IMG/VR virus record: IMGVR_UViG_3300043446_001394
Location: 1-46,731 of that record
Reading direction: 5' to 3' (one strand)
DNA: 46,731 bases
Source: a virus
The first letter of the stretch is position 1. Every line of letters begins with the position of its first letter. The notes beneath the pieces are model-generated. The model was not told where the DNA came from, did not search any database, and saw only the letters and a list, made by a program, of their open reading frames with translations. Positions 12,673 through 30,953 of the stretch are shown here, piece after piece. The position numbers were made by a program, and so were the translations under genes.

Positions 12673-13617
12673 TTAAGCAACTTTTCTCAATTGTTCTGGA
12701 TATTCTTTAATTTTGCCTTTATTAAGCAAAAATTCGCTCGCTCGGTATGATTGCGAAAGCGCGCTAATTAAAAACTTATTATCGTTTTCTAATGCGCTTA
12801 TCCAACTTTTAAGATACGCGAGATTATTAGTGTTAACTGTTTTTTGTAAGTTAAAACGTTGAGACAATAAAACCGCGCCAATTTCCGCGATTAATTCCTC
12901 GTGTGCATATTCCAATTGCGCATTGTCTTTAAAACGTTTTTTGTTTTTTTCAAATCGCGCTAGTCGGTTTTTTGCTCCGCTCCAATGTATCAACTCGTGA
13001 AATAATACCGAGTAATAATTGCCCGTTGCGCTATTATCTGGCGTGTCTTTAAAAGTTTTTTTATCACTCATAACAACTTTATCGACCGTTATATTATAAA
13101 AACAACGTCCGTCATTACTGTGTGACAAATGCAAGCCCTCGATTGAATTGACAAAGTTTTCAATTTCTTGATTATCAATAACCTTACTTTCGGGCGTTTC
13201 GCTAGGCGCTCTATACGTTGAATTTTTTAAATCAACTTGCGCCAAATTATAAACGTAAGATACTTTTAAAAACGCGAAAGTTTTTTCATCATTTTTTTCG
13301 TTTTCTTTTACGTTCTTTTTAAACGTGCTATAGTAAAATATTGCGCGTCCGTTTTTTTCTTGACCCTCTAAGATAGTCGCGCCAACACTTAACCACGCTT
13401 TTTTTGTAGCCCACAAATTAGATTTAAAATCTAATTTACGTTTTTGGATATTTAAACCCCAGAAATTGACGCCGTTATATTCTTTAAGCGTTAACGCGTT
13501 CTTAGGGTACCCGTAGCCAGAAAACGATTTAAAATATTTTAAACCGTCTTTTTTTAAACCGTCAACTATTTCATTTTGTAAAATTGTTAACGCGTCTTTC
13601 GTATATTTACTGAACAT
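12673..13617 (-). CDS. ArdC-like antirestriction protein
   Basis: 314 aa in two parts. The N-terminal ssDNA-binding domain (about 1-125) has YPKNALTLKEYNGVNFWGLN and a TKKAWLSVGATILEGQEKNG stretch, the hallmark G-x-N-x-x-x-L / G-x-x-V-x-K-G-E pattern in slightly divergent form. The C-terminal zincin-like metallopeptidase has FHELIHWSGAKNRLAR, with HExxH at 207-211 and a third ligand likely at E245 (ELIAEIGA). ArdC proteins of plasmids and phages protect incoming DNA from restriction. The gene is transcribed divergently from the GP88-like gene, with its own terminator. The CpG-rich composition suggests a different recent history from the late genes. Confidence 0.85.
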   Translation of the reverse strand: MFSKYTKDALTILQNEIVDGLKKDGLKYFKSFSGYGYPKNALTLKEYNGVNFWGLNIQKRKLDFKSNLWATKKAWLSVGATILEGQEKNGRAIFYYSTFKKNVKENEKNDEKTFAFLKVSYVYNLAQVDLKNSTYRAPSETPESKVIDNQEIENFVNSIEGLHLSHSNDGRCFYNITVDKVVMSDKKTFKDTPDNSATGNYYSVLFHELIHWSGAKNRLARFEKNKKRFKDNAQLEYAHEELIAEIGAVLLSQRFNLQKTVNTNNLAYLKSWISALENDNKFLISALSQSYRASEFLLNKGKIKEYPEQLRKVA

Positions 13618-17231: not shown

Positions 17232-17250
17232 CCGTGAGCCGTGAGCCGTG
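17232..17250. repeat. Heptad CCGTGNN array
   Basis: CCGTG at 17232, 17239 and 17246, a strict 7-bp period. Related short arrays occur at 17391-17402 (complement) and inside several genes elsewhere in the window. Confidence 0.7.
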
Positions 17251-17270
17251 TATCGTTTTACGCGGTTTTT

Positions 17271-17364: not shown

Positions 17365-17413
17365 AAGCAAACGGGTACACAAGCAAGGAACACGGAACAC
17401 GGATTTGGGATTA

Positions 17414-17443
17414 AACTAGGGGTAGAATAAGCTACCCCCAGTT
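17414..17443 (+). promoter_or_regulatory. GGGGTAG hairpin before first early micro-gene
   Basis: AACTAGGGGTAG pairs with CTACCCCCAGTT with one mismatch and a 6-base loop. No T-run follows. It stands just upstream of the AAAGGACG ribosome site at 17450-17460. Similar GGGGTA/TACCCC hairpins occur at 18232 and 22295. Confidence 0.5.
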
Positions 17444-17462
17444 AAAAGAAAGGACGTAAAAA

Positions 17463-17760: not shown

Positions 17761-17979
17761 ATGCCTAGATACGCGTTAACAGAAAGTACTAAGCACCTTG
17801 ATATGCAAGAAAGAGTGCAAGTACAAAAATACAATATTACAAAAAACAAAATTGGATATTGTATTCAAATACTAAAATGGAATGAAAAGAGAGAAATTTA
17901 CGAAGCTCTTTATACCATTGATAGTAAGGAGTTTAATTTCGAAGATAATTCGGACAAGGCAAGAGAAAGTTCCGAATAA
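17761..17979 (+). CDS. Unknown small protein (72 aa)
   Basis: Soluble, charged, with a central beta-like stretch NKIGYCIQILKWNEKREIYE and an acidic tail. The ribosome site ATAGGAGTAAAA is strong. No motif recognised. It is followed by a GC-rich hairpin without a T-run. Alone between hairpins, so probably a separate transcript segment. Confidence 0.6.
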   Translation: MPRYALTESTKHLDMQERVQVQKYNITKNKIGYCIQILKWNEKREIYEALYTIDSKEFNFEDNSDKARESSE

Positions 17980-17991
17980 GTTTAGCTAACC

Positions 17992-18017
17992 CAATGCCCA
18001 GAACAATCTGGGCATTG
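17992..18017 (+). promoter_or_regulatory. 10-bp hairpin after the 72-aa gene
   Basis: CAATGCCCAG (17992-18001) pairs with CTGGGCATTG (18008-18017) over a 6-base loop. There is no T-run, so it is a stabiliser, processing signal or weak terminator rather than a standard one. The arms again hold CCCAG/CTGGG. Confidence 0.55.
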
Positions 18018-18057
18018 AGATAGTTAATAATGACTATCAAAACAAAAGGACGAAAAA

Positions 18058-18222
18058 ATGAGCGAAACAAAAAAAGAAATGCAAGAACGACTTTTATATT
18101 TACAAGAAAAGTATGAAGATGTTCAAGCAGATATAAATCGTCTTAATGATAAAATACAAATCTTAAGACAAAGACAAATATATTTAGATAAAGAAATAAC
18201 TTCTTTACAATTAAAAGTATAA
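18058..18222 (+). CDS. Small coiled-coil protein (54 aa)
   Basis: Begins MSETKKEMQERLLYLQEKYE and keeps heptad Leu/Ile spacing to the end (TSLQLKV), so it is a continuous coiled coil likely to dimerise. The leader AAAGGACGAAAAA precedes the ATG. It is flanked by two hairpins. No function known. Confidence 0.6.
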   Translation: MSETKKEMQERLLYLQEKYEDVQADINRLNDKIQILRQRQIYLDKEITSLQLKV

Positions 18223-18231
18223 TACAATTTT

Positions 18232-18256
18232 GTACCCCCTAAAATTTAGGGGGTAC
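18232..18256 (+). promoter_or_regulatory. GTACCCCC hairpin after the 54-aa gene
   Basis: GTACCCCCTAAA faces TTTAGGGGGTAC as a near-perfect palindrome (18232-18256). There is no T-run on either strand. Shares the TACCCC/GGGGTA core with the hairpins at 17414 and 22295. Confidence 0.6.
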
Positions 18257-18349
18257 TACACCTCATCAAGACCCGAACTCAAGCATATACGTTCATTTAA
18301 ACAAGACTTTTATACAACTAAATAGTGAAAAATAAGGTTAATTTAATGT

Positions 18350-18409: not shown

Positions 18410-18577
18410 ATGAAAGAAGATATACAGGTTATTAAACAGTACATTAAAACTTTTAATGACAGAAAATTGAGAGAGGAATATAGATTATATACCTCACTTG
18501 AAAAACCAACAATCCTTGAAAACTATTTTAAGGACTTTATTAAACAAGAAATAAACCAAAGAGGTATTGGAGTATGA
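18410..18577 (+). CDS. Small protein (55 aa), first gene of the coupled operon
   Basis: Begins MKEDIQVIKQYIKTFNDRKL, mostly helical and charged. The ribosome site AAAGGAGTAAAAA is strong. Its stop overlaps the next start (ATGA). It opens a chain of genes joined by one- or four-base overlaps to 22235. Function unknown. Confidence 0.65.
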   Translation: MKEDIQVIKQYIKTFNDRKLREEYRLYTSLEKPTILENYFKDFIKQEINQRGIGV

Positions 18578-18855
18578 AAAAAGAAAAGACATTATTACGT
18601 TTTAGAATTTATGACGGCGATAGGGAATATACCGATTACGCTATCATAGATAATAAAAAACTATTAACTTTAAATTACAAAGAAATAATTTCAGTTTTTT
18701 TCTATGATAATAAAGTTGATGAGGATCAATTTTTATCGGACGGCAGAGCCGTGAGGATTGAAAGTGAAATACCGATTACTGATGCAGAGGCAAAGAAACT
18801 AGAACAACTCAGTATAGCTTTTTTACTCGAGTTTGAATTAGAAAAGGTTGCATAA
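18574..18855 (+). CDS. Unknown protein (93 aa)
   Basis: The N-terminal beta-like part (LLRFRIYDGDREYTDYAIID) is followed by an acidic helix (ITDAEAKKLEQLSIAFLLEF). No known motif. Joined to both neighbours by overlaps (ATGA before, TAATG after). Possibly a small host-interaction protein, as is common for early phage genes, but nothing specific supports this. Confidence 0.65.
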   Translation: MKKEKTLLRFRIYDGDREYTDYAIIDNKKLLTLNYKEIISVFFYDNKVDEDQFLSDGRAVRIESEIPITDAEAKKLEQLSIAFLLEFELEKVA

Positions 18856-19043
18856 TGGCTATAACAATTAATGACATTAAAGACTGGCTAGAGAACGAAA
18901 TGTTTGTATATGAAGATTACGTTAAAGCTAGAGAAAATGGAGACGAGCCATTACACGATGATGGCACGGACGATATTAATTGTGGTCGTCATAAATGTGC
19001 AGAGCAATTATTAATGTACATAACTAGAAAGGAAAAAGAATGA
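18855..19043 (+). CDS. Unknown small acidic protein (62 aa)
   Basis: Begins MAITINDIKDWLENEMFVYE and contains DDGTDDINCGRHKCAEQLLM. A single His/Cys group (C-G-R-H-K-C) is noteworthy but too short to call a metal site. The opening I-x-D-I-K-D-W/V-x-W-L-E-x-E resembles the 75-aa protein at 20799-21026, which suggests paralogues. Confidence 0.65.
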   Translation: MAITINDIKDWLENEMFVYEDYVKARENGDEPLHDDGTDDINCGRHKCAEQLLMYITRKEKE

Positions 19044-19294
19044 ATACAATACTAGATGCTGTAAAAAAGCTAGATGAAACGATTGCTAAACAAAAAAGTA
19101 TTGCTAATAAACTAGCAGAGGAACACAAACAACTACAAGAGGCGTTAGCAGTAGTGTGTTGTAATGCAGATGAAGATTGTCCGTTAGAATATAGAACGGA
19201 ACATTTTAAATCAGCAATAACGGACGGTTATAATTTACTTACAAAAGTAGGTTATTTTAAAAACAAAAAGAGGGTAAACAAATGGGACACTTAA
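19040..19294 (+). CDS. Unknown coiled-coil plus cysteine protein (84 aa)
   Basis: The N-terminal coiled coil (LDAVKKLDETIAKQKSIANK) is followed by VVCCNADEDCPLEYRTEHFK. Three cysteines sit close together. ATGA coupling joins it to the previous gene, and a 13-base overlap joins it to the next. Function unknown. Confidence 0.65.
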   Translation: MNTILDAVKKLDETIAKQKSIANKLAEEHKQLQEALAVVCCNADEDCPLEYRTEHFKSAITDGYNLLTKVGYFKNKKRVNKWDT

Positions 19295-19491
19295 ATAAAA
19301 TATTTTATAACTATATGACTGAGCAAGACGCGTGGGACGAGTACCTTGGTCTTTTGAAAGATGACAATGCTTTCGCAGAACAATGGAAAGATACTCAAGA
19401 TGATTTTGAGGAGTGGTGTGAAATTAATGACGTTGTCTTAGTGGATACACGAGATAGAGTTAATCAACTAGAGGAGGCACAATTACAATGA
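19282..19491 (+). CDS. Unknown acidic protein (69 aa)
   Basis: Rich in Asp, Glu and Trp (EQDAWDEYLGLLKDDNAFAE). The start has GAGGGTAAACAA upstream inside the previous gene. No motif recognised. The strong negative charge is typical of DNA-mimic or inhibitor proteins of phages. That is only a possibility. Confidence 0.65.
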   Translation: MGHLNKIFYNYMTEQDAWDEYLGLLKDDNAFAEQWKDTQDDFEEWCEINDVVLVDTRDRVNQLEEAQLQ

Positions 19492-19730
19492 GTAATATAT
19501 GTTTATGGTGTAGACGTGATACTTCATTTGGCACGGGTTTATTTGTAAATAGAATACCCGCTTGGCTTGATGATGAGGAGGGCTACAAGTGTATTGAATG
19601 TGAAATAGAAACAATCAAAGAATGCTATTTAGAATGCGAGGACTGTGGCGAATATACTTGCGAGGGTAATGGTGAATGCGTTGATTGTGGTAGTCAAAAA
19701 TTAAAAGAAATAAAGGAAGTAAGAATATGA
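19488..19730 (+). CDS. Cysteine-rich zinc-ribbon-like protein (80 aa)
   Basis: Ten cysteines: CLWC (5/8), CIEC (35/38), C46, CEDC (50/53), C58 and CVDC (64/67). Paired CxxC knuckles like these usually bind two or more zinc ions. The rest is acidic. Small zinc-ribbon proteins act in nucleic-acid or protein binding. No catalytic residues are seen. ATGA overlaps join it to both sides. Confidence 0.7.
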   Translation: MSNICLWCRRDTSFGTGLFVNRIPAWLDDEEGYKCIECEIETIKECYLECEDCGEYTCEGNGECVDCGSQKLKEIKEVRI

Positions 19731-19912
19731 AACTAAATCAAAGGAACAAGGACGATTTAATAGAGGCTCTAATAGATTGGCACACGGAGGCTTATTATGC
19801 AAATAGGTATCTCTTTGATAAAGATGAAAACGAAAACGATGTAGGAAAAAACTACATAAAGTTTGAGGCGATGTTGAAAGTTATTAAAAAATTAATAAGG
19901 GAGGCAAAATGA
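19727..19912 (+). CDS. Unknown small protein (61 aa)
   Basis: Begins MKLNQRNKDDLIEALIDWHT and ends in a helical IKKLIREAK segment. The DDLIEAL..W pattern is helical throughout. ATGA overlaps on both sides. Function unknown. Confidence 0.65.
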   Translation: MKLNQRNKDDLIEALIDWHTEAYYANRYLFDKDENENDVGKNYIKFEAMLKVIKKLIREAK

Positions 19913-20160
19913 GTATACCCGATGTAGATGTACCTATTGGCTTTCTTTATGAAACAACATTGATGAAATACGCTAGTGGTCAATTAACTAAAGACGGAAT
20001 GATAATGTCGCCAGAGGACGCATTAGAACATTTCAAACAATTAGCGATTGATGAGGGCTTTGCAGAAAGTACAATAGAAAATTCAGCGGAAGAACTATTG
20101 TATGACTTAGAAGAAATAGAAGAACAAAAGTATAGAGAATATTTGGAGGAAAAAGAATGA
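19909..20160 (+). CDS. Unknown acidic protein (83 aa)
   Basis: The N-terminus MSIPDVDVPIGFLYETTLMK is followed by helices with GMIMSPEDALEHFKQLAIDE. The C-terminus is Glu-rich (LLYDLEEIEEQKYREYLEEK). No motif identified. Coupled by four-base overlaps to its neighbours. Confidence 0.65.
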   Translation: MSIPDVDVPIGFLYETTLMKYASGQLTKDGMIMSPEDALEHFKQLAIDEGFAESTIENSAEELLYDLEEIEEQKYREYLEEKE

Positions 20161-20342
20161 GTAAAGCATTTATCATACATAAAAAAGATTTGTCGTGTGG
20201 AATTTATTACACCCTAGATACGTTGTTTAGGGAAATAAATAATAAAGAAATAAGACCGCAAGATTTTTATTTCTTTACAAATGAAAATAAGGCTATAGCC
20301 TTTCAAGAACAACTAATAAACAAACAAAGGAGTAAAAAATGA
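20157..20342 (+). CDS. Unknown small protein (61 aa)
   Basis: Begins MSKAFIIHKKDLSCGIYYTL, a strand-turn-strand pattern, and ends with a basic helix (INKQRSKK). ATGA coupling to both sides. The AAAGGAGTAAAAA at its end is the ribosome site of the next gene. Function unknown. Confidence 0.65.
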   Translation: MSKAFIIHKKDLSCGIYYTLDTLFREINNKEIRPQDFYFFTNENKAIAFQEQLINKQRSKK

Positions 20343-20620
20343 TACAAGAAACATACAAACCAGATATCTTGGTTAAATTTGGGGACGAGGACATAGACGA
20401 CATTGGCGATTTTACATATTGCTATTGTTGGGCTATGGAGGGACTACAAGAATCTGGCGATAAAGACTATGAAAAAAAAGCAGATGAAATAGATGAACAT
20501 TACGAAAAAGTTAAAGATAATCTAACTCACAAAACTATGATTGAATTATTAGAGATGACTAATATGCGTGGTTGTGGTTGGGAAGTATTAAGTGAACATT
20601 ATGTAAAGGAGGAAAAATGA
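20339..20620 (+). CDS. Unknown acidic protein (93 aa)
   Basis: Asp/Glu-rich with LVKFGDEDIDDIGDFTYCYC and EMTNMRGCGWEVLSEHYVKE. The strong negative charge and aromatic residues suggest a surface-binding inhibitor, but I do not recognise a family. Its start has the best ribosome site within the operon (AAAGGAGTAAAAA). Four-base overlap with the next gene. Confidence 0.65.
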   Translation: MIQETYKPDILVKFGDEDIDDIGDFTYCYCWAMEGLQESGDKDYEKKADEIDEHYEKVKDNLTHKTMIELLEMTNMRGCGWEVLSEHYVKEEK

Positions 20621-20799
20621 ATAAAGACGAACTAACAGAAAGACAATGGGACGAACTTAGAGCAAGTACTGTTGAACGCATTATGGATATGAATGAAACA
20701 GAGGCAAAAGAAGAACTTGAAGAATATATCTTTAATGAAATGAGTAATAAACCAAAAGACTACTTACTTGAATGTGGTTGGATAACGGAGGAAGAATAA
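20617..20799 (+). CDS. Unknown acidic helical protein (60 aa)
   Basis: Begins MNKDELTERQWDELRASTVE and ends YLLECGWITEEE. Mostly helical and acidic. Its stop shares bases with the next start (TAATG). Function unknown. Confidence 0.65.
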   Translation: MNKDELTERQWDELRASTVERIMDMNETEAKEELEEYIFNEMSNKPKDYLLECGWITEEE

Positions 20800-21026
20800 T
20801 GAAAGACATAAAAGACGTTGTAGCGTGGCTCGAGGAAGAAATTGCCCATTTTGAAATGGCAGTTGAACAACATAACTATGTATCTAAAACAGATGAGATT
20901 AGATACAGAATGGCTCAAGAACTATTGGCTTGGACATTGGGATCAAAGTTTGATCCTAGATATTCCGTGAGCCGTGTTCCGTGTAGCGTGGAACAAGACA
21001 CTAAGTCATTTGGGAGTAGGACATGA
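20799..21026 (+). CDS. Unknown small protein with heptad-repeat-encoded tail (75 aa)
   Basis: I choose the ATG at 20799 because GGAGGAAGA precedes it and it overlaps the previous stop. An upstream ATG at 20772 lacks a ribosome site. Begins MKDIKDVVAWLEEEIAHFEM, similar to the 62-aa protein at 18855-19043. From residue 56 (RYSVSRVPCSVE) the coding sequence is the CCGTGNN heptad array, which looks like an inserted repeat that was kept in frame. Confidence 0.65.
   Translation: MKDIKDVVAWLEEEIAHFEMAVEQHNYVSKTDEIRYRMAQELLAWTLGSKFDPRYSVSRVPCSVEQDTKSFGSRT
20965..20990. repeat. CCGTGNN heptad array inside a gene
   Basis: CCGTG at 20965, 20972 and 20979, then GCGTG at 20986, all at 7-bp steps. Same unit as at 17232-17250. 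It lies in the 3' part of the 75-aa gene. Confidence 0.75.
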
Positions 21027-21202
21027 AATATAAATATAAATGGGTTATTACAAATTATGTAAATAAACTAAAAAAAAATATTATACCCCTTAAAGCAGAT
21101 AAACTTTTATTTAGTAATGATATACCTATTATTAAAAAAGGTAAGTATAAAGGACATATGGGCATAGGTGGAATGATACTTTGTATGGTAATTCAAAAAT
21201 GA
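21023..21202 (+). CDS. Small basic protein with hydrophobic tail (59 aa)
   Basis: Encodes MKYKYKWVITNYVNKLKKNI at the start and GHMGIGGMILCMVIQK at the end. The terminal Gly/Met/Ile stretch could be membrane-seeking. Coupled by ATGA to genes on both sides, the main evidence that it is real. Function unknown. Confidence 0.6.
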   Translation: MKYKYKWVITNYVNKLKKNIIPLKADKLLFSNDIPIIKKGKYKGHMGIGGMILCMVIQK

Positions 21203-21312
21203 TTAGCAAATACTTAAAAGACATTAAAAAATTACTTAAAGCCTATCACAAGAAATATGATTGCTTTGGTAAACCAATAAAAAAACCAACTAAGAGAAAG
21301 AGAAGAAGATAA
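21199..21312 (+). CDS. Micro-protein, very basic (37 aa)
   Basis: Begins MISKYLKDIKKLLKAYHKKY and ends PTKRKRRR. The strongly positive tail suggests nucleic-acid binding. Start overlaps the previous stop (ATGA). Its stop overlaps the next start (TAATG). Function unknown. Confidence 0.6.
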   Translation: MISKYLKDIKKLLKAYHKKYDCFGKPIKKPTKRKRRR

Positions 21313-21599
21313 TGGCAACAGAAAAACAAAGACTACATAACAATCTAGCCTCTTTAAGAGGAGTAGATAAGTTTATAGATTTTCTATTATACCACGTTGA
21401 TAAAACAACAAAGATACAAGGAACATTATTTGTATCGGAATACATTGTAAAACTTTGTAAAGATAGAAAGAGATACAATCAAAAATATAGAGAAGAAACA
21501 ATAGAAAAGATAAAAGAAATGAATAAACAACGCTTTGACCAAGATTATATATACAATAATCACGGCGAAGATGACTTTAACACTTGGAGTAATATATGA
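21312..21599 (+). CDS. Unknown helical protein (95 aa)
   Basis: Begins MATEKQRLHNNLASLRGVDK, followed by LFVSEYIVKLCKDRKRYNQK and an acidic end (HGEDDFNTWSNI). Predicted largely helical. TAATG before, ATGA after. I do not recognise a family. Confidence 0.65.
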   Translation: MATEKQRLHNNLASLRGVDKFIDFLLYHVDKTTKIQGTLFVSEYIVKLCKDRKRYNQKYREETIEKIKEMNKQRFDQDYIYNNHGEDDFNTWSNI

Positions 21600-21862
21600 A
21601 AATTAAAGACTTAATTAGAGAACTAAAACGTTATAAAGAAGATACAGAAGTTATCTTTAAAATCATACCACCAGAAGAAGTTTGTGATGATGACACAAGA
21701 GATATCCCTTTGACGTGGTACGGGACTATTGGTACATCACTCGCGGATCATGATAACCCAGCAATAGAATTCGGTTTACAATATGAAAACCCAGAAGATT
21801 GGGAGGAAGAATGGAAAGCGGGTTATGACCGATACTATGACGATGCAGGACAAGACATATAA
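21596..21862 (+). CDS. Small conserved phage-type protein (88 aa)
   Basis: Begins MKIKDLIRELKRYKEDTEVI, the K-D-L-I-x-x-L-x-x-(Y/V)-x-x-D-x-E-V start widespread among short phage proteins of unknown function. A middle segment (DIPLTWYGTIGTSLADHDNP) and an acidic aromatic tail (DWEEEWKAGYDRYYDD) follow. Function unknown. Confidence 0.65.
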   Translation: MKIKDLIRELKRYKEDTEVIFKIIPPEEVCDDDTRDIPLTWYGTIGTSLADHDNPAIEFGLQYENPEDWEEEWKAGYDRYYDDAGQDI

Positions 21863-21877
21863 CAATGAGAGGAAACA

Positions 21878-22015
21878 ATGACAAATAAACAATGGATAGA
21901 GAAGAACAGAGAACGACTAAAAGAATACCAAGCTAATTACTATTTAAAAAATATTGATAAGCTAAAAGAGTATAAACGCAAATGGTATCAATCAACTAAA
22001 AAGGAGAGCAAATGA
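21878..22015 (+). CDS. Micro-protein, Tyr/Lys-rich (45 aa)
   Basis: Begins MTNKQWIEKNRERLKEYQAN and contains YYLKNIDKLKEYKRKWYQST. The W-x-x-x-N-R-E-x-x-K-x-Y...Y...N..K..EY..KWY pattern matches the helical segment that often precedes HNH domains in phage nucleases. It may therefore be a remnant or stand-alone DNA-binding piece. The ribosome site GAGAGGAAACA is good. Confidence 0.55.
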   Translation: MTNKQWIEKNRERLKEYQANYYLKNIDKLKEYKRKWYQSTKKESK

Positions 22016-22077
22016 GTGGACACGATCATGCGATGTTTGCATTATTTGTAATAATAGCAATACTATGTTTACTATAA
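22012..22077 (+). CDS. Micro-protein, single membrane span (21 aa)
   Basis: Encodes MSGHDHAMFALFVIIAILCL plus one Leu. A short polar start is followed by a 13-residue hydrophobic helix. It overlaps the previous stop (ATGA) with AAGGAGAGCAA as ribosome site. Tiny membrane peptides of this kind occur in early phage operons. Function unknown. Confidence 0.5.
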   Translation: MSGHDHAMFALFVIIAILCLL

Positions 22078-22235
22078 TAAAACGTTGGACAAGTAATTTC
22101 TTTTGGTATATGAATAAGAATAGGTATGACGGCCAAAGGATAACTTGGTTAGAAAGATTTAAAGTTTTTTGGGCATTGCGCAATGAAAAGACTTGGGACG
22201 AGAAGTTTCAAGAATGGCGCAATATGAAACCATAA
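22065..22235 (+). CDS. Small Trp/Arg-rich protein (56 aa), operon end
   Basis: Encodes MFTIIKRWTSNFFWYMNKNR and then RITWLERFKVFWALRNEKTW, a basic aromatic helix protein. The start lies inside the preceding micro-gene in another frame, continuing the overlap chain. It ends the plus-strand operon, 59 bases before a hairpin. Function unknown. Confidence 0.5.
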   Translation: MFTIIKRWTSNFFWYMNKNRYDGQRITWLERFKVFWALRNEKTWDEKFQEWRNMKP

Positions 22236-22294
22236 CGATCTTTGTATGTCTATATCCCGTCATAGACGTACAATGCACACGTAGACGTGTAGTA

Positions 22295-22327
22295 GGGGTA
22301 GTTAGAATTAGGAACTTTAACTACCCC
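22295..22327. terminator. GGGGTAGTTA hairpin between convergent units
   Basis: GGGGTAGTTA (22295-22304) pairs with TAACTACCCC (22318-22327). It lies between the end of the plus operon and the end of the minus-strand 45-aa gene, where a bidirectional stop is expected. There is no clear T-run, so strength is uncertain. Confidence 0.55.
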
Positions 22328-22344
22328 GAATTATACACTACTAT

Positions 22345-22482
22345 TTAGTCTTCGTCTTCTTCGTCATCGAATTCAGAATCTTCGTTTTCAGATTCTAATT
22401 CTTCAACTTTTTCTCTAATATTCTCAATATCTTCGTTTATTCTATCTAGGATATCTTGAATTGTTTCTTTTTTCTTTGCCAT
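22345..22482 (-). CDS. Very acidic micro-protein (45 aa)
   Basis: Begins MAKKKETIQDILDRINEDIE, a coiled coil, and ends in a run of Asp/Glu (EFDDEEDED). A strong GGGAGG ribosome site lies six bases upstream. Acidic phage peptides can mimic DNA or bind host polymerase. No direct evidence here. It ends the minus-strand set that starts at 23918. Confidence 0.65.
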   Translation of the reverse strand: MAKKKETIQDILDRINEDIENIREKVEELESENEDSEFDDEEDED

Positions 22483-22532
22483 GAGATTTCCTCCCGCGAG
22501 AATTATGTGCGTTCATGAATATGGGATCAAGT

Positions 22533-22967
22533 CTATGCAGTAATAAACACGCAAGAGAAAAGAGCTGTGGTTGCATCTTTTACACAATTACGTAAATATT
22601 CTAATCTTGTTCTGTGATATTTTTTAGATTCGGCGTCTTTTGATTTTTTATATATAATATATTGTTTATAATATTTAGCCCAAGCAATTTGTTTTAAATT
22701 AAATGTAATATCACCTTTTTCAATGGCCTGAACATATTTTTCTTTTACTTTATTTGGCTCAAAGCCAGACCAATAACAAACTTTTTCAAAGTCATTATCG
22801 GATAACATTATCCATTCGTGAGCATTAACTTTATAAATACTTGATTTTCTATCTGATTGTTTAATAAGTGTATCTTCTAAGGCATTAACTAATACACCAC
22901 GCCAAAGTTTTTGTTCAGGTACTAATTCGTCTGTTTTAAGAGAAATGGTGGCAAATTCAATGCCCAT
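22533..22967 (-). CDS. Conserved phage protein of unknown function (144 aa)
   Basis: I choose the ATG at 22967, which overlaps the upstream stop. A GTG at 22997 is an alternative. PEQKLWRGVLVNALEDTLIK and WIMLSDNDFEKVCYWSGFEP form a pattern I have seen in marine phages and alphaproteobacteria (K-L-W-x-A-V-L..A..D....W......DF..VC..AG..P..V), where it is annotated as a domain of unknown function. It may be a DNA-binding or host-interaction protein. Confidence 0.6.
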   Translation of the reverse strand: MGIEFATISLKTDELVPEQKLWRGVLVNALEDTLIKQSDRKSSIYKVNAHEWIMLSDNDFEKVCYWSGFEPNKVKEKYVQAIEKGDITFNLKQIAWAKYYKQYIIYKKSKDAESKKYHRTRLEYLRNCVKDATTALFSCVFITA

Positions 22968-23175
22968 AATTTTTAACAAGGTAAGCGAGTAAGTCACGAT
23001 AGTATAAAGTTATTTCAGGACTTTCCCTTGTCTTGAGGTAATAATTGTAATCATCATATACATCCTCTATCAATTCTGAGATTTGCTGTCCAGACCACTG
23101 CTTTCCGTTCAATACAAACTCATCAAATCTATCATTCATTTTATTATTGTAAGCCTTATTTTTCATCTTTTCCAC
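22957..23175 (-). CDS. Unknown small protein (72 aa)
   Basis: Charged helical protein starting MEKMKNKAYNNKMNDRFDEF and ending LLAYLVKNYGH. Overlaps both neighbours. An internal ATG (MKNKAYNN) is possible as start. Function unknown. Part of the coupled minus-strand set under the 23.95-kb promoter. Confidence 0.6.
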   Translation of the reverse strand: MEKMKNKAYNNKMNDRFDEFVLNGKQWSGQQISELIEDVYDDYNYYLKTRESPEITLYYRDLLAYLVKNYGH

Positions 23176-23410
23176 CCTTTAAGACCTTTAATTTAAGTAT
23201 CCTTGCTTGTTTTTCAATCTTTTTTTTATGATTCATTTTCCAAATAAAATGAATATCGGTTAAGAATTGTTGATCGTGTTTTTTATAACCAAAGCTATAT
23301 CCACAATGTAATTGAAAAAAAGTTCCTGCAACAACTGCATAATCTTCAAGTGATAATCTAGTAGCACAAATTTGAAGTGATCTATGTAAATCAGTTGATT
23401 GTTTTTTCAT
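23156..23410 (-). CDS. Unknown small protein (84 aa)
   Basis: Begins MKKQSTDLHRSLQICATRLS with LEDYAVVAGTFFQLHCGYSF and a basic C-terminal helix. The Cys/His residues are scattered and no motif is evident. Overlaps both neighbours by 20 bases each. Function unknown. Confidence 0.6.
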   Translation of the reverse strand: MKKQSTDLHRSLQICATRLSLEDYAVVAGTFFQLHCGYSFGYKKHDQQFLTDIHFIWKMNHKKKIEKQARILKLKVLKGGKDEK

Positions 23411-23645
23411 CTTTTTCTATTGGCTTAATTAATTTAGCGTCTTTAATAATTGTATCTAATAATTCATTAAAACTTTTTTCATCTAATATTCCTCTATATA
23501 ATCTAAGTCCTTGTGAAAGTAATGTAGAAGCAACTAATTGATCGTCTTCATATTTATCTAATAGACGATAGGTATACTGTAATACTTCTTTATAAAGATT
23601 AAATAGTCTAGCTTGTTGGAGTATGTTTAATTTTTTAACGGGCAT
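23391..23645 (-). CDS. Unknown helical protein (84 aa)
   Basis: Leu/Tyr-rich helical sequence (MPVKKLNILQQARLFNLYKE) and a C-terminal LLDTIIKDAKLIKPIEKDEK. Its start overlaps the stop of a tiny membrane peptide gene. No known family recognised. Confidence 0.6.
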   Translation of the reverse strand: MPVKKLNILQQARLFNLYKEVLQYTYRLLDKYEDDQLVASTLLSQGLRLYRGILDEKSFNELLDTIIKDAKLIKPIEKDEKTIN

Positions 23646-23730
23646 TGAAATAGAATATTGAAAAAATAATTATGCATATAATGATAAACGTATATTCATA
23701 CCAATAAATACTTTTAATTAGTTCAATCAT
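23635..23730 (-). CDS. Micro-protein, single membrane span (31 aa)
   Basis: Encodes MIELIKSIYWYEYTFIIICI followed by IIFSIFYFNAR. Residues about 14-28 are a continuous hydrophobic span. The start overlaps the upstream stop (ATGA) and its end overlaps the next start, which argues for real translation. A small inner-membrane peptide. Role unknown. Confidence 0.55.
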   Translation of the reverse strand: MIELIKSIYWYEYTFIIICIIIFSIFYFNAR

Positions 23731-23918
23731 TTTTTTAATAATTTTTTTAAGTATGCTTCAATAGTCATTTTACTTTTATTTGCTCTAAATTTTACATAAT
23801 CGTGTGTAAGTTTTGATATCATTGATGCAGGGTTTCTAAATTTTTCATCACATAGTGCTTTTAAAATTTTATAATCATTAATTCTTACAGCGACACTTTT
23901 CCATTTTGTAATATCCAT
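23727..23918 (-). CDS. Possible ribbon-helix-helix regulator (63 aa)
   Basis: The segment KWKSVAVRINDYKILKALCD followed by EKFRNPASMISKLTHDYVK has the strand-helix-helix plan of Arc/MetJ-type DNA-binding proteins. S-V-A-V-R-I would be the DNA-contacting strand. The basic C-terminus fits. It is the first gene after the promoter at 23943-23971, with AAGGAAAATA as ribosome site, so autoregulation is plausible. Confidence 0.55.
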   Translation of the reverse strand: MDITKWKSVAVRINDYKILKALCDEKFRNPASMISKLTHDYVKFRANKSKMTIEAYLKKLLKK

Positions 23919-23942
23919 ATTATTTTCCTTAGATTCCTACTA

Positions 23943-23971
23943 GCTATAATGTGTTGGCAAGTACGTGTCAA
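23943..23971 (-). promoter_or_regulatory. Sigma70-like promoter for the 22.3-23.9 kb unit
   Basis: On the minus strand, TTGACA (23971-23966) is followed by a 17-base spacer and TATAGC (23948-23943). It is the best spaced promoter in the window. Transcription would start about 20 bases before the ribosome site of the RHH-like gene. Confidence 0.6.
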
Positions 23972-24004
23972 TGCTTAAAAAGTTAATAAATAAGCCACTT
24001 TTTA

Positions 24005-24238
24005 ATGATTGCCCATGATAGCAAAGATATGATAAGATACGACATGAAGTTATATAGATACCACGTTCGATATGCTGGTCATTGTATTAGTCATGACGTA
24101 TGGGCGTCCAACGATGAGGAATCTAGGAATAATTTCATAAAAGAACTCAATGATGGTAAATACACGATGAGAAAAGAAATCACGTATTCGCCATCAAAGA
24201 TGTTTATAACATACGAGGAACTTAATGTTTCTAAATAG
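24005..24238 (+). CDS. Unknown protein (77 aa)
   Basis: Core YRYHVRYAGHCISHDVWASN and EESRNNFIKELNDGKYTMRK. There is no strong ribosome site at the first ATG, and ATG at 24044 (MKLYRYHV) is an alternative. It is one of two plus-strand genes wedged between minus-strand units. A short alpha/beta fold seems likely. Function unknown. Confidence 0.5.
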   Translation: MIAHDSKDMIRYDMKLYRYHVRYAGHCISHDVWASNDEESRNNFIKELNDGKYTMRKEITYSPSKMFITYEELNVSK

Positions 24239-24440
24239 TGAAGCCTTGTTAGCAAGGAAAATGATTCTAGAATCAAAATGGAATCAACAATTTCTTGAAC
24301 AAGGAAAAGAAACTATCGACATGTTAAAGATTGAACTTGAATTGAAAGAACTTAAAAAACAATTAAGAGTTCAAACTATACATGAAGAAATTTCTAGACT
24401 AAAAAGTGAAGAAGAAGATATAAATTATATCGCTTCTTAG
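24225..24440 (+). CDS. Small coiled-coil protein (71 aa)
   Basis: Starts MFLNSEALLARKMILESKWN with GAGGA five bases upstream, then a Glu/Lys/Leu coiled coil (MLKIELELKELKKQLRVQTI). Ends in an acidic tail. Its stop codon overlaps the stop of the convergent ParB-like gene. Function unknown. Confidence 0.55.
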   Translation: MFLNSEALLARKMILESKWNQQFLEQGKETIDMLKIELELKELKKQLRVQTIHEEISRLKSEEEDINYIAS

Positions 24441-24901
24441 TTTTGTGGTAATTTAATTACGTTCTCTGTAAAGAGATGAAGACACTTCTCTGTGTATTTT
24501 TTCATTTTGCCTTGAAATAAAAATTCAAAGTCCATTACATTTTTCTTAGCAATATGTCTTTCCCAAACCTCTACATTTAATCTACCAAGAAAATTAACTT
24601 CTTCTGGTGTTTTAGCTTTATAGAATAAACTACCATCAGCTAATTTACCTTTTTTCAATACAGCAAATCTATTAGCACCATTTCTAACTTCATTATTCCA
24701 ATCAACAACCATAGGGCATAATAAACCATCTTTTTCCATCGAATGTCTTACAGTTTGTTTAAAATCATTATGTGGTGTGTGTATTTGTTTTACATCATCA
24801 AACCATAATAATTCCAAACGCATTGGAAATAATTGATAAAACGGATGAACAATGATCCGTGAGTCGTGGTACTTGGTTCTAGCTAGCTTGTCCAAAGTCA
24901 T
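24437..24901 (-). CDS. ParB/sulfiredoxin-like domain protein (about 154 aa)
   Basis: The segment RHSMEKDGLLCPMVVDWNNE followed by VRNGANRFAVLKKG matches the ParB N-domain pattern (S-x-x-x-x-G-x-x-x-P-x-x-V...G..R...). That fold includes partition proteins and phage nucleases or ATP-dependent enzymes. The rest is unlike known ParB proteins. The start overlaps the polymerase by 23 bases. The AGGAG site abuts the ATG at 24901 and is better spaced for a TTG two codons later, so the start is uncertain. A DNA-linked role in replication is inferred from its place. Confidence 0.6.
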   Translation of the reverse strand: MTLDKLARTKYHDSRIIVHPFYQLFPMRLELLWFDDVKQIHTPHNDFKQTVRHSMEKDGLLCPMVVDWNNEVRNGANRFAVLKKGKLADGSLFYKAKTPEEVNFLGRLNVEVWERHIAKKNVMDFEFLFQGKMKKYTEKCLHLFTENVIKLPQN

Positions 24902-26747
24902 CTCCTATGCTTATATCTACAACGCTTGGTACTTTAAATTCCATACATGTTTCCATAACTTCTTTTATTTTTAATTCATCTCCAGCTTTTACATTGAAAC
25001 ATAATTCATCATGGATTTGTAATATAGGAAGATATCCAGCTTCATAACAAGATACAATAGCTTGTTTAGTTTGATCGGCTGCCGAACCTTGTATCAATCT
25101 ATTTAATGCTTTATAGGTAAAAGCACGTTTAATTCCGTCTTTACCATATTTAGCAACAGCATTTTCAAATGTTTCAGCAGTATGGATACCAAAATCTTTA
25201 GTTTCCCACATATCAAATCTACATTTTCTACCTTTTTTAGTACGAATAACACCCTCATCGTTTGCTTTTTTCATACATCTATCAGATAATTGTTTTACAA
25301 ATGGAACTTTACGATTATATTTTGATATTAGTACTTCTGCTTCTTCTTTTGATAATCCTAAAGAGTTCGCTAATTTATTTTTTCCCATACCGTACATTAA
25401 TCCTAAGCCAATTGTTTTAGCTTGAGATCTTTCTATACCAACTAATTCTGCAATTGTTTGGTGAAAGTCTGCTGAAGCATTTGCATAGGCTCTAACAAGT
25501 TCTTGTGAACCTTCATAACCCTCGCCAATAGAAGCCGCATAGTGAACAACCATTCTTGGTTCTTGTTGTGAGTAATCAAAGGAACCCCACTTATGATCTT
25601 CTTCTGGTAAGAACAAGCCCCTAATCTTTTTAGCAAATTCTTTATTACGTGCAGGAAGTTGTTGTAAATTTGGGTTAGACATAGAAATACGACCAGATAC
25701 TGTTCCACCTTGATCTGATCTTAATTGATTAATCTCTGCATGAACTCTTCCTTTATGTTCATACTTTAAAATATTTGCAAGGAAAGTATTATGAAATTTA
25801 TTAATTTCTCTTGCTTGTACAATCAATTGAGAGATTTGGTGTTTAGAGTTATGCAACCAGTTTTGTGTAAAGGATGGTGCACCTGTATTTTCAGTTCTAG
25901 GATATTCAATCTTTAACTTATCAAAAGCTTCTCCTATTTGTCTTGCCGCCCAGATATCTACATCTTTACCAACAAGTTTATTAATCTTTTGTAATAACAC
26001 TTTCTCCTGTGTTGCAAACTCTACCATTAATTTACTTGCTTTCTCAACATCAACTCTAACACCTCTTTGACGCATTTTAATTAATATTGGAAGTATTTTA
26101 GATTCTAATTCCCATATCGTCATTAAATTTTGAGTTACAATTTCATGTTTAAATCGTTGCCACAATAAGTACGTGAGCCGTGCATCTTGTTCCGCGTAGA
26201 AACCAACATGCTCTGCTGGTAATTTCCACATCTCCGCTTTAGGATCAATACCATGATCTTTAGCCGCTTCAATTAAATCTGTTTCAGCTTTAATTTCTCC
26301 AAGATACTTTTTAGCTAAATTGTTTAATGAATAAGACCATTCATTTTCATCTATTAATGCGGCCGCTATCATGGTATCAATAATGACACCATTAACAGTC
26401 ATACCCATAGCATTTAGCCAACCTAGATCGTACTGAGCATTATGAAATATTTTTTTATTAGGTAATGCACATACAGTTTTAATATATTTAAGAACTTGTT
26501 CAGGAACCATATTGCCACCAGCAAAGTGATCAAAAGGATAATAACCTTGCCAACCATCTACGGCTACTGCAAAACCAATTACCTTTCCATTATTAGTTGC
26601 CCAACCAGCCCCTAATCCTTTAGTAATTCCATCATCTCTTGTTTCTAAGTCAATTGCTATTTCTGGATAACCAGATAAATCTTTATATTCACTTGGACAA
26701 GACCAAATACTTTTCTTAAACGTCATAGATAATTGTAAACTAGTCAT
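24879..26747 (-). CDS. Family A DNA polymerase with 3'-5' exonuclease
   Basis: 622 aa. The exonuclease domain has AIDLETRDDG (D33/E35), FHNAQYDLGW (D108) and FYAEQDARLT (Y184/D188). Polymerase motif A is FDYSQQEPRM (D391), motif B RSQAKTIGLGLMYG (440-453) and motif C QIHDELC (H579/D580/E581). There is no 5'-3' exonuclease domain, as in most phage PolA. The residue aligned with E. coli Phe762 is Leu448, a variant common among uncultured marine phages and linked with slower, more accurate synthesis in engineered enzymes. It is the core replicase of this phage. It overlaps the DUF3310 gene by eight bases. Confidence 0.95.
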   Translation of the reverse strand: MTSLQLSMTFKKSIWSCPSEYKDLSGYPEIAIDLETRDDGITKGLGAGWATNNGKVIGFAVAVDGWQGYYPFDHFAGGNMVPEQVLKYIKTVCALPNKKIFHNAQYDLGWLNAMGMTVNGVIIDTMIAAALIDENEWSYSLNNLAKKYLGEIKAETDLIEAAKDHGIDPKAEMWKLPAEHVGFYAEQDARLTYLLWQRFKHEIVTQNLMTIWELESKILPILIKMRQRGVRVDVEKASKLMVEFATQEKVLLQKINKLVGKDVDIWAARQIGEAFDKLKIEYPRTENTGAPSFTQNWLHNSKHQISQLIVQAREINKFHNTFLANILKYEHKGRVHAEINQLRSDQGGTVSGRISMSNPNLQQLPARNKEFAKKIRGLFLPEEDHKWGSFDYSQQEPRMVVHYAASIGEGYEGSQELVRAYANASADFHQTIAELVGIERSQAKTIGLGLMYGMGKNKLANSLGLSKEEAEVLISKYNRKVPFVKQLSDRCMKKANDEGVIRTKKGRKCRFDMWETKDFGIHTAETFENAVAKYGKDGIKRAFTYKALNRLIQGSAADQTKQAIVSCYEAGYLPILQIHDELCFNVKAGDELKIKEVMETCMEFKVPSVVDISIGDDFGQAS

Positions 26748-26955
26748 TGTAGTCCCTTTCTATAATCATCTCTATATAATGTATTGCTTTTAACAAATCT
26801 TGTTTCTTTCCTTTATCTTGGTGGCGACATATATACTTGATTGCATTACCCTCTGCAAACAATATTTTGTTTTTATTAATGAATTCAGATGGTTGTATGT
26901 CATACTTTTTATAATGTGCTCCACCCACTTGTCTAAAAAATGCTTTATTGCTCAT
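26740..26955 (-). CDS. DUF3310 (SaV-like) phage protein
   Basis: 71 aa. GGAHYKKYDIQPSEFINKN, then EGNAIKYICRHQDKGKKQDL and LKAIHYIEMII, are the full conserved signature of DUF3310, often labelled nucleotide kinase although activity is not proved. It is usually found in phage replication modules, as here between the helicase and the polymerase. Start overlaps the helicase stop (ATGA). Confidence 0.85.
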   Translation of the reverse strand: MSNKAFFRQVGGAHYKKYDIQPSEFINKNKILFAEGNAIKYICRHQDKGKKQDLLKAIHYIEMIIERDYND

Positions 26956-28589
26956 TTCTTCTCCTGTAAGTAAACTAAATAATCTCTACCAACAGGATAG
27001 TTATATTGATGATCGCTAGATAACAAATGCAATGTTTTCTTTGCTCTAGTGAATCCCGTGTAATAAACTTTTAGTTCGTCTATTTTGTCTTGTTTATTCT
27101 TCCTATTAAAATCAGAGGCATAATCGTTTTTAGCTGATACAATTACGTGATCAGCTTCTCCACCTTTAACAGAATGAATAGTATCTATAATGATTTGGGG
27201 TCGTTTGTCCAATTGTTCTTGCCCATATCGTTTTAATAATCTTATAAAGTAAATCTTTTGTTTTGAACTAAAGTTTCTTCTTAATATCCACCACCATTCT
27301 TTTGTTTGGCTTTCATCATCTAATGTTAAACCACACCATTCTTTTAATTCTTTAAAGTTATAAGTAGTAAAATCTGGCTGTTCTATCCAAAACTTTTCAT
27401 CTCTGTAATTAGAATTTTCAACTTCTCTAATATATCTATACATATTCTCTGCATTCTTCTTATCAATAGATTTTCCTTTTGATATAGCAGTCCATGTTTT
27501 AATTGCGTTCCATTGTTTTTGATCAAATGATTTAGTTTCTTTGCTATCTTCAAAATATAATCCTGCGGCTTTGGCGCCCATTCTTAATTCATTAACAACT
27601 TTAGTAACTCTTCCTAAGATATACCAAGTACCATCTAATTCATTAAAAGGTATCTCCATAAAACTCATATAACGTTTTACATAACCTTGTTCTTTATTAA
27701 TTGTTTCAAAATCTTTTTCTACGCTATCCAATATTCCTCTACGAACTATTTGAGAAAAATCATATATTGCTTGATTAAATCTTCTTGTTTTGTGTAATAC
27801 GACTTTTCGGCCTGGAAAATATGTAGTAAAATACTTTGGATCTGATCCATTCCATTTATAAATAGCTTGGTCATCATCTCCTGCTAAATAAATTCTTTTA
27901 ACATTATCAACGATCTTATAAATAACGGACCATTGTAATGGTGTAAAATCTTGAGCTTCATCTAATATTAAAATATCTAATGGAGGAAAAACTACTTCAT
28001 TAATAGCTCTTTCAATCATATCTGTAAAATCAATTAAAGGTCTTTCTCTTCCATTACGCTTATAATGTTCATAGGTAGATATCTTTCTTTGAAATACATC
28101 TATGTTATCTTTCTTGTAAGATTCCATTTTATAAACAGAGATTGGATCTTTCATCATGTTTCTTGATTTATCATAAATACCAAGTGACCAATCTTTATAA
28201 ACAAAGTTGTCATCTTCTAATCGCATATCAGAATATTTAATAAATTTTTCTTCTAATGCAAAATCAATTAAACAATTTTTAATATCAAAGATTTCTTCTT
28301 CAAAATATCTTCTGCAATATTTATGTAATGTTTTAAATCTAGAAAAATCTTTTTCAGTATATTGTGGAAATGCAGCAAGTGTTCTATCTCTTGCAGTATC
28401 TACTGCTTTATTTGTAAAAGATATAAAAGCAATATTATTAGGATTAGTTCCTCTTTTAATATGTCCCTTTAATACTTTTTCAATTAAAGTATATGTCTTT
28501 CCAGTTCCAGGGGGCCCAAATATTTTAACTGTCTTTTTATATATTTGTTTTAGCTTCTGGATTTCTAAATTTTCCTGTGTGATACTCAT
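26952..28589 (-). CDS. UvrD/Rep-like superfamily 1 helicase
   Basis: 545 aa. Walker A GPPGTGKT (25-32), motif Ia FISFTNKAVDTARDR, Walker B LILDEAQD (about 206-213), motif III GDDDQAIYKWNG, motif V TIHSVKGGEADHVIVSAKN and motif VI YTGFTRAKKTLHLL are all present. It unwinds DNA 3'-5' with ATP. As no DnaB-type helicase was recognised, it may be the replicative helicase of this phage. Its start lies 53 bases inside the primase gene. Confidence 0.9.
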   Translation of the reverse strand: MSITQENLEIQKLKQIYKKTVKIFGPPGTGKTYTLIEKVLKGHIKRGTNPNNIAFISFTNKAVDTARDRTLAAFPQYTEKDFSRFKTLHKYCRRYFEEEIFDIKNCLIDFALEEKFIKYSDMRLEDDNFVYKDWSLGIYDKSRNMMKDPISVYKMESYKKDNIDVFQRKISTYEHYKRNGRERPLIDFTDMIERAINEVVFPPLDILILDEAQDFTPLQWSVIYKIVDNVKRIYLAGDDDQAIYKWNGSDPKYFTTYFPGRKVVLHKTRRFNQAIYDFSQIVRRGILDSVEKDFETINKEQGYVKRYMSFMEIPFNELDGTWYILGRVTKVVNELRMGAKAAGLYFEDSKETKSFDQKQWNAIKTWTAISKGKSIDKKNAENMYRYIREVENSNYRDEKFWIEQPDFTTYNFKELKEWCGLTLDDESQTKEWWWILRRNFSSKQKIYFIRLLKRYGQEQLDKRPQIIIDTIHSVKGGEADHVIVSAKNDYASDFNRKNKQDKIDELKVYYTGFTRAKKTLHLLSSDHQYNYPVGRDYLVYLQEKK

Positions 28590-30114
28590 CGTCCATTTCA
28601 GTTATCGTGTTAGTTCTTCCGTTGCTCTTCTTTATTGATTGATGATTAATAAATTTAGGCATTTCAACATGCCAAACATTTTTAACCCCTTTATGATATT
28701 CTAATCTAGTGCAGTTTAATAAACGTAATGCATCTATTGTAGAATTAAATACTTTACTTTTTTTATCTTTAAGCCATTTATCAATTGTTGCTCTAGTAAA
28801 ATAACAAACGTTTGTCGTAGAATCTAAAACAATATATCCATCTTTTAATTTATCAAAATCATCTTGTTCTATTTTATCTTCAAAGAAATCTTTCAATGTT
28901 TGATATCTTTCATCTTCAACAATATCTGCATAATTAAAATGTTTATTTTCTACAAATCTTTTCATTAATGCTGATAACATTACTTCATAAGGATTTGGAT
29001 TAGCTTTAGACTTAGGTAATGTCTTCCAAAATATTCCATGTTTCATTAGTTTTAATCTCCAAGCTTTTTCATCAATCATATTTTCTGGTTGCATAACAAT
29101 ATGTTGATTCTCATAATCAAACTCATAATAAGTTGTTTTTAAATCAAAAGACTTCATAGGATTTTTAAACTCATCTATAATCTGTGGTACTTCAGCTTGT
29201 ATACCTAAAGATCTAGTCATACATAATTCTTTATTACATATAGGTGCTAGTTCTGGGTGTTTACTTGGACATAAATAAAAATAGCCACCTTTTTTAACAG
29301 ACTTTGCTGTATTCTCTACTTCTCTATCGTCTAATGGATTAGTAAATATTTCTCTGTTTCTATTCTTTCCTATTCTAATTAAATCTTCTAAATTTATTAA
29401 AGGATTCTTTTTAGTTTCTAATGTAAGTACATTAAATAAAAAATTGTTTCTATTATTACCAGACCATTTTTCTTGTATTAATTTTTGTACACAAGGAGGA
29501 TAGTTAGACCATTGTGCTTCTGGTTCATATGTTGGTGCTTCAAAATTATTTAATTCTTCAATACTCATTTTCTTTTTATTTGCTAAAGCAATAAATGATT
29601 GAAGGTTAATTCCCATACCATTTTCAGCTATTGCGTATTCAGAAGTTAATTCAGCATTGGTATAAGGCATACCAACAGCTTTATTCATTGGAAATATTTC
29701 ATTAGAAAGAAAATATAGCGTGTTCCAGTTATCTAAAACTTTTCTAATATCTTCTACTTTAGCCCAATCTTTTAAAAATAAAAATAAATGTAATCCACCA
29801 GATTTAGATAATACTGGAACTAATGGTAACTTTGAATTTGTAATTATGTCTACGTATTTTTTTGATGAATAATCTTGATAATTTTTTGGATCAATATCTA
29901 TACAGCCCCAGATAGCTTTATCGTCTCTTTCTGGTTTAAGACCAATAACAATTTTACCGTCAATATGGTCTTTCCATATTTCATCTGTTAATGGTTTATG
30001 AATAGTTAGGTAATCTGCTTTTCTTTTACCCCTTTCATCCTTGCCACCCGTTAGAGTGGCTTGGATGTATTGGGTGTTGTTTCCAGCAAATAGTTCCGCT
30101 AATTGCTTGTACAT
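28537..30114 (-). CDS. Archaeo-eukaryotic-type primase (AEP superfamily)
   Basis: 525 aa. GCIDIDPKNY (D73/D75) supplies the metal-binding acid pair, and VLSKSGGLHLFLFL (H109 in SGGLH) the nucleotide-binding strand. The arrangement resembles the primase domains seen in TOTE-type conflict elements and marine phages. A C-terminal Cys/His cluster near residue 285-305 (FYLCPSKHPELAPICNKELC) may bind zinc. The last 150 residues are of unknown fold, perhaps a winged-helix PriCT-like region. It makes primers for the family A polymerase. Bacterial DnaG and T7 gp4 domains are absent. Confidence 0.8.
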   Translation of the reverse strand: MYKQLAELFAGNNTQYIQATLTGGKDERGKRKADYLTIHKPLTDEIWKDHIDGKIVIGLKPERDDKAIWGCIDIDPKNYQDYSSKKYVDIITNSKLPLVPVLSKSGGLHLFLFLKDWAKVEDIRKVLDNWNTLYFLSNEIFPMNKAVGMPYTNAELTSEYAIAENGMGINLQSFIALANKKKMSIEELNNFEAPTYEPEAQWSNYPPCVQKLIQEKWSGNNRNNFLFNVLTLETKKNPLINLEDLIRIGKNRNREIFTNPLDDREVENTAKSVKKGGYFYLCPSKHPELAPICNKELCMTRSLGIQAEVPQIIDEFKNPMKSFDLKTTYYEFDYENQHIVMQPENMIDEKAWRLKLMKHGIFWKTLPKSKANPNPYEVMLSALMKRFVENKHFNYADIVEDERYQTLKDFFEDKIEQDDFDKLKDGYIVLDSTTNVCYFTRATIDKWLKDKKSKVFNSTIDALRLLNCTRLEYHKGVKNVWHVEMPKFINHQSIKKSNGRTNTITEMDDEYHTGKFRNPEAKTNI

Positions 30115-30117
30115 AAT

Positions 30118-30951: not shown

Positions 30952-30953
30952 GT

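Follow-up and report, generated by a model that had tools for sequence, protein, structure and literature searches.

A chain of nineteen coupled small genes in a pelagiphage-like virus, a probable host-takeover array exchanged gene by gene

What might nineteen tiny genes, packed stop to start in a single chain, do for a virus? The chain in question occupies positions 18410..22235 (+) of the IMG/VR virus record IMGVR_UViG_3300043446_001394, a single virus record that was analysed over its whole length of 46,731 nucleotides (the window). Its genes, numbered g1 to g19 in order, all start with ATG and encode products of 21 to 95 amino acids (aa; mean 67 aa). The portal protein of the virus is 68% identical to that of Pelagibacter phage HTVC023P over 94% and 54% identical to that of HTVC027P, and a virion-module protein matches its HTVC023P-type counterpart at 66%. 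Judged by these two genes, the virus is a relative of the HTVC023P-type pelagiphages. At a probability of about two in three, we consider the locus to be an array of small accessory genes in a pelagiphage-like podovirus, expressed early by translational coupling, directed at host takeover and swapped gene by gene.

A preliminary description of this DNA, made from its letters alone, had reported an uninterrupted chain of small genes overlapping by one or four bases, with one gap of 15 bases. The chain was confirmed, as were the product sizes. Overlaps of -4 or -1 bases were found at 15 of the 18 junctions and the +15 gap at g16/g17, while two overlaps of 13 bases (g4/g5 and g18/g19) had been missed. 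The gene caller favours coupling, but the 300 dinucleotide shuffles used for comparison were passed through the same caller. The real array had a coding coverage of 1.02, 15 coupled junctions and a longest run of 11, against a mean coverage of 0.20 (maximum 0.48) and a mean of 0.43 coupled junctions (maximum 3) in the shuffles. The reverse strand of the segment contained seven open reading frames (ORFs) and one coupled junction. A Shine-Dalgarno (SD) match of at least 4 nt preceded 16 of the 19 starts, compared with 7 of 91 other ATGs.

Relatives carrying parts of the array came from IMG/VR scans in which the queries were the polymerase, g2, g8, g12 and g16, and a match to any of g1 to g19 over at least half its length was counted as a homologous stretch. 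This yielded 142 stretches in 32 contigs, several of which end inside the array. Broken frames in relatives, which had been named beforehand as the sign against a functional cluster, did not appear: none of the stretches had an internal stop. All 19 genes occur elsewhere, from one contig (g6, g11) up to 22 (g14). The pooled ratio of nonsynonymous to synonymous polymorphism (pN/pS) lay between 0.06 and 0.46 for 17 genes, a set that leaves out g11 and g13. For g11 the pooled value was 0.84, because the family included two distant members; for the near pair alone it was about 0.3. The 19 ORFs are thus real genes. A bacterial-genome scan with g2 gave no match, nor did a DNA search of the array against phage records.

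Maps of 20 relatives showed a common layout with differing gene content. Among gene-family pairs co-occurring at least twice, order was constant in 328 of 348. Neighbours vary nonetheless, g12 having eight different upstream neighbours and g14 six. A relative whose portal protein is 96% identical to that of the window shares 13 of the 19 array genes versus 51 of 59 other genes (6/19 missing in the array versus 8/59 elsewhere). Sequence identity was then compared around overlapping junctions, in pairs that are not independent. When the upstream gene was the same and the downstream gene different, identity stayed at 0.60-0.66 as far as the ATG and fell beyond it to background (0.42 and 0.30 versus 0.39 and 0.30). 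When the upstream gene differed and the downstream gene was the same, it was 0.35-0.46 before the ATG and 0.62-0.69 after it. These alignments indicate that the exchange boundary is the start codon and that genes are gained, lost or swapped singly with their order kept.

Two junctions show where the ribosome-binding site belongs. The tail of g8, GAGGA(A/G)AAAGA followed by ATGA (EEKE and stop), is kept whether the next gene is g9, g12, f6, f11 or a singleton (the letter f denotes array families of the relatives). Gene g4 is followed either by g5 or by the unrelated f3, and both begin with MGHL because those codons sit in the end of g4, within the 13-base overlap. The SD therefore belongs to the upstream gene, the 3' end of each gene contains the site at which the next is initiated, and an inserted gene would be read from the right start with no ribosome-binding site of its own. 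Codons for C-terminal endings such as -EEK, -EEKE and -EEE serve, at least in part, as the ribosome-binding site of the following gene.

From this organization we infer the following mechanism. The whole array would be transcribed as one unit ending at a double hairpin (22240-22340), and ribosomes would go from gene to gene by coupling, as each stop overlaps the start that follows, the SD for which lies within the last codons of the preceding gene. As exchange occurs at start codons with order kept, an inserted gene would be translated at once. The products would act early, each on a separate host process (transcription included) and not as one complex. The early timing is proposed by analogy with the host takeover module of Bacillus phage SPO1 (PMC6873191) and with HTVC027P, in which no early gene has a known function (PMC12753301). 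The array is probably a means of taking over the host cell at an early stage of infection. As in the SPO1 module, the genes form a contiguous, mostly small-gene cluster and have ribosome-binding sites like those of well-expressed genes.

What individual products do can be said less firmly. Pfam, NCBIfam, PHROGs and PADLOC gave no named function for any of the 19. The statement that none had a recognised function thus stood, except that g13 (21023..21202, +; 59 aa) matches phrog_36003 (E=6.9e-5), an unnamed family that also contains the virion-module gene 2277-2750(-) (E=3e-62). The two proteins match each other directly (BLASTP E=3e-7; hhalign probability 96%), and g13 has the conserved family motif PII..GKY.G..G..G..L. 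It covers about 40 of the 156 family positions and lies in the small-gene array, and so is not a full-length structural-module domain; by sequence comparison it is a shortened, diverged relative of the virion-module protein. Another truncated relative of that protein, f4, takes the place of g13 upstream of g14 in relatives.

The best functional clue comes from two relatives (L010 and L112), in which a 151-aa protein, f18, is encoded between array genes and has a stretch resembling the RNA polymerase alpha-CTD. Alone, f18 scored just under the Pfam cut-off (E=1.6e-4) and matched PDB entry 1doq at E=1e-3; in the genome search the alpha-CTD family exceeded the Pfam cut-off in 2 of 12 phage records. 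This likeness would point to transcription as a target. The core of g16 (21596..21862, +; 88 aa; net charge -14; pN/pS 0.16), about 58 aa long, is common to HTVC024P gp08 (44% identity) and to other pelagiphage-like contigs (43-50%), and in HTVC024P the gene lies within a left-end cluster of small genes beside regulators, which favours a takeover role. The AlphaFold model of g16 (pLDDT 52) was unusable, and PDB profile searches with g16 and g2 returned chance-level matches only.

Many products had been described as strongly acidic. Seven are indeed strongly acidic (net -8 or lower), but the charge is not uniform, and five are clearly basic (+4 to +14). The negative charge of g8 (19909..20160, +; 83 aa; net -16; 11 contigs; pN/pS 0.23), g10 (20339..20620, +; 93 aa; net -14; 79-80% identity in 3 contigs; pN/pS 0.41) and g16 is as in DNA mimics of the Ocr/Gp44 type; none of the three has a Pfam match, nor g16 a PDB match. 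The product announced with ten cysteines is g6 (19488..19730, +; 80 aa; 95% identical in L089; pN/pS 0.07 from one pair). It is probably zinc-binding, since its cysteines form CxxC pairs; its FYVE/ZZ matches in the PDB are weak. Two membrane-spanning products had also been claimed, of which only g18 (22012..22077, +; 21 aa) has a convincing single hydrophobic span (Kyte-Doolittle 2.00, all others at most 0.8). Judged by eye, the array of the relatives also has small zinc-ribbon-like and lipoprotein-like products. Frame conservation, purifying selection and SD sites uphold the view that undescribed small genes form a functional cluster here, and the further idea of an early arsenal of inhibitors is plausible.

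Several observations weigh against a takeover array. No plus-strand consensus promoter was found above chance, as judged against shuffles, upstream of g1, and no known inhibitor fold or family was present among the products of the window. The alpha-CTD-like f18 is absent from the window, and its copies in two contigs are identical, so that it counts as a single instance. In three relatives (L089, L094 and L097) the array precedes a terminase small subunit gene on the same strand; the genomic place therefore differs among relatives, and position does not in every case point to early expression. A more detailed version of the takeover reading is put forward only tentatively, namely that the array is a relay in which the unit of exchange runs from start codon to start codon, and that sets of host-directed proteins, such as the alpha-CTD-like one and those with a shared DTK[AS]FG tail, are reshuffled in fixed order among pelagiphages.

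The locus could instead be a general accessory ('moron') region, whose genes help at different times, for instance in superinfection exclusion or through envelope or lysis functions. This would suit the hydrophobic mini-proteins among its members (g18; f12, an unrelated-looking hydrophobic 20-mer that replaces g18 in relatives; f20 and f14) and the lipoprotein-like f10. The genes turn over strongly and are missing from most relatives, which would likewise suit conditional usefulness, and the temporal classes of HTVC027P are mosaic (PMC12753301). We nevertheless regard it as rather unlikely, in view of the compact build of the array as one unit on a strand of its own, the transcription role suggested by the alpha-CTD-like member, and the g16 relative that adjoins regulators in HTVC024P.

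Less probable still is that the array consists chiefly of genes against host defences (anti-restriction, anti-CRISPR and similar), exchanged according to the defences that the host has. This agrees with the turnover of single genes between phages that are almost identical, with the small acidic proteins and with an anti-restriction gene elsewhere in the window (12673-13617(-); phrog_7245, E=1.6e-49). Against it, no array product matched a known defence-related family in PADLOC, which covers defence and not anti-defence, and the conserved members g1, g12, g14 and g16 evolve slowly. The hosts of the HTVC023P-type isolates, moreover, are SAR11 bacteria, which have streamlined genomes and probably few defence systems. 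Finally, the reading that the ORFs are decayed genes or arose by chance in AT-rich DNA, which tiny products without recognised function might suggest, can be set aside, because frames are conserved in relatives, with the shuffle test, the SD enrichment and pN/pS well below 1 in agreement.

The remaining members of the proposed takeover array are as follows. The chain usually begins at or near g1 (18410..18577, +; 55 aa), which has a 6-nt SD and is 80-98% identical in 13 contigs (pN/pS 0.21). It is followed through a -4 coupling by g2 (18574..18855, +; 93 aa; net -5; 65-89% in 15 contigs; pN/pS 0.20). An AF2 model of g2 (pLDDT 63) predicts, at low confidence, a beta-rich protein with C-terminal helices, and matched no fold in PDB or BFVD at E<=1e-3. 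The acidic g3 (18855..19043, +; 62 aa) is joined by a -1 coupling and is 93-100% identical in 2 contigs (pN/pS 0.06); g4 (19040..19294, +; 84 aa; 8 contigs; pN/pS 0.32) follows by a -4 coupling. Next to it, g5 (19282..19491, +; 69 aa) has a net charge of -13 and is 62-79% identical in 5 contigs (pN/pS 0.30). Beyond g6 lies g7 (19727..19912, +; 61 aa; 67-70% in 2 contigs; pN/pS 0.30), and beyond g8 the basic g9 (20157..20342, +; 61 aa; 70-77% in 3 contigs; pN/pS 0.33). Missing in many relatives, g11 (20617..20799, +; 60 aa; net -12) is 93% identical in L090 (pN 0.03, pS 0.10).

Gene g12 (20799..21026, +; 75 aa; 13 contigs; pN/pS 0.24) encodes a helical-looking body, a linker coded by CCGTGNN heptamers and the conserved C-terminal tail DTK[AS]FG. 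The longer peptide DTK[AS]FG(G/S/R)R is common to g12 and to otherwise different array proteins (in L089, L107/L068 and L144). Its copies differ by synonymous codon changes, and it is possibly a movable short binding motif. Heptamer arrays of CCGTGNN were found at 17232-17257(+), 17384-17402(-), 20965-20990(+) and 41052-41070(+), with 0 expected in shuffles, and also in many related contigs; that in the 3' part of g12 codes its variable linker.

The most widespread member, g14 (21199..21312, +; 37 aa; net +14), has a Lys/Arg-rich tail and is 51-91% identical in 22 contigs (pN/pS 0.17). It is followed by g15 (21312..21599, +; 95 aa; 5 contigs; pN/pS 0.32). The basic g17 (21878..22015, +; 45 aa; pN/pS 0.16) matches phrog_17714 (E=2e-5) and vaguely resembles N-terminal repeats of HNH/endonuclease VII proteins; its derivation from the HNH gene of the phage itself (34444-34968(-)) was considered and found unsupported (BLASTP E=0.018). 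The last gene, g19 (22065..22235, +; 56 aa; 30-98% in 14 contigs; pN/pS 0.15), has no SD, and its start overlaps g18 by 13 bases. Its translation is therefore probably reached by coupling and would be hard to explain otherwise.

The array stands between minus-strand structural genes, which lie left and right, and minus-strand replication genes (22345-31499); its strand carries neither the structural genes nor most of the replication genes. Between it and the converging replication genes are two stable hairpins (22236..22344; fold -40.1 kcal/mol, z -5.5; no U-tract), and this double hairpin is a probable two-way transcription boundary. Another hairpin (18231..18258; z -4.0) precedes g1, within the leader region. 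Two small plus-strand genes of 72 and 54 aa precede the array (17761..18222, +), uncoupled to it and with a strong hairpin between them (z -8.0). Strong GC-rich hairpins without U-tracts divide plus-strand units at 17990-18020, 18231-18258, 17418-17444 and 22240-22340, and are perhaps the terminators of this phage group. Two minus-strand promoter-like sites with identical hexamers, TTGACA-17-TAAAAT (17513-17485(-) and 16996-16968(-); 11 of 12 matches), face the structural genes from within a repeat-rich intergenic region. The larger ORFs of the window showed no gene for a phage RNA polymerase. An in-frame TGA had been suspected in the portal gene of two relatives, but translation showed open frames all along the portal gene.

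How does the array compare with known systems? The SPO1 module comprises 26 mostly small early genes (PMC6873191), and the array resembles it in its clustered small genes, its strong ribosome-binding sites and the unknown function of most members (PMC6873191). The SPO1 module, however, has several operons and promoters and growth-inhibiting products that were tested, whereas the array is one coupled chain known from sequence. No homologue of the SPO1 module or of other early small-gene regions was found for the array proteins. The early regions of T7-like and T4-like phages also contain small, acidic or basic, variable genes, which act on host polymerase, nucleases and defences, and the array is like them in the size, charge and variability of its genes; we know of no ordered arrays with start-codon exchange boundaries in those regions.

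Closer relatives show a similar mixture. The window shares with HTVC023P and HTVC027P a related portal, the same virion-module gene and the same replication genes, but no homologue of an array gene was found in these phages, save the weak match of g13 to the virion-module protein. The left-end cluster of HTVC024P also consists of consecutive small genes, including gp08, yet its junctions are less tightly coupled, and g16 is the sole array gene in common. In the open-access literature searched, no description of such a coupled, fixed-order, start-codon-exchanging array was found. The array supplies a limited set of candidate takeover proteins, ordered and conserved, whose exchange follows a visible rule, so that how these phages seize SAR11 cells becomes directly testable; the rule could also help to locate such arrays in unannotated phage genomes. 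Most likely, the array resembles the early regions of SPO1 and T7 in role and is not homologous to them, and its single long coupled chain, its fixed order and its exchange boundaries at start codons seem to be what sets it apart.

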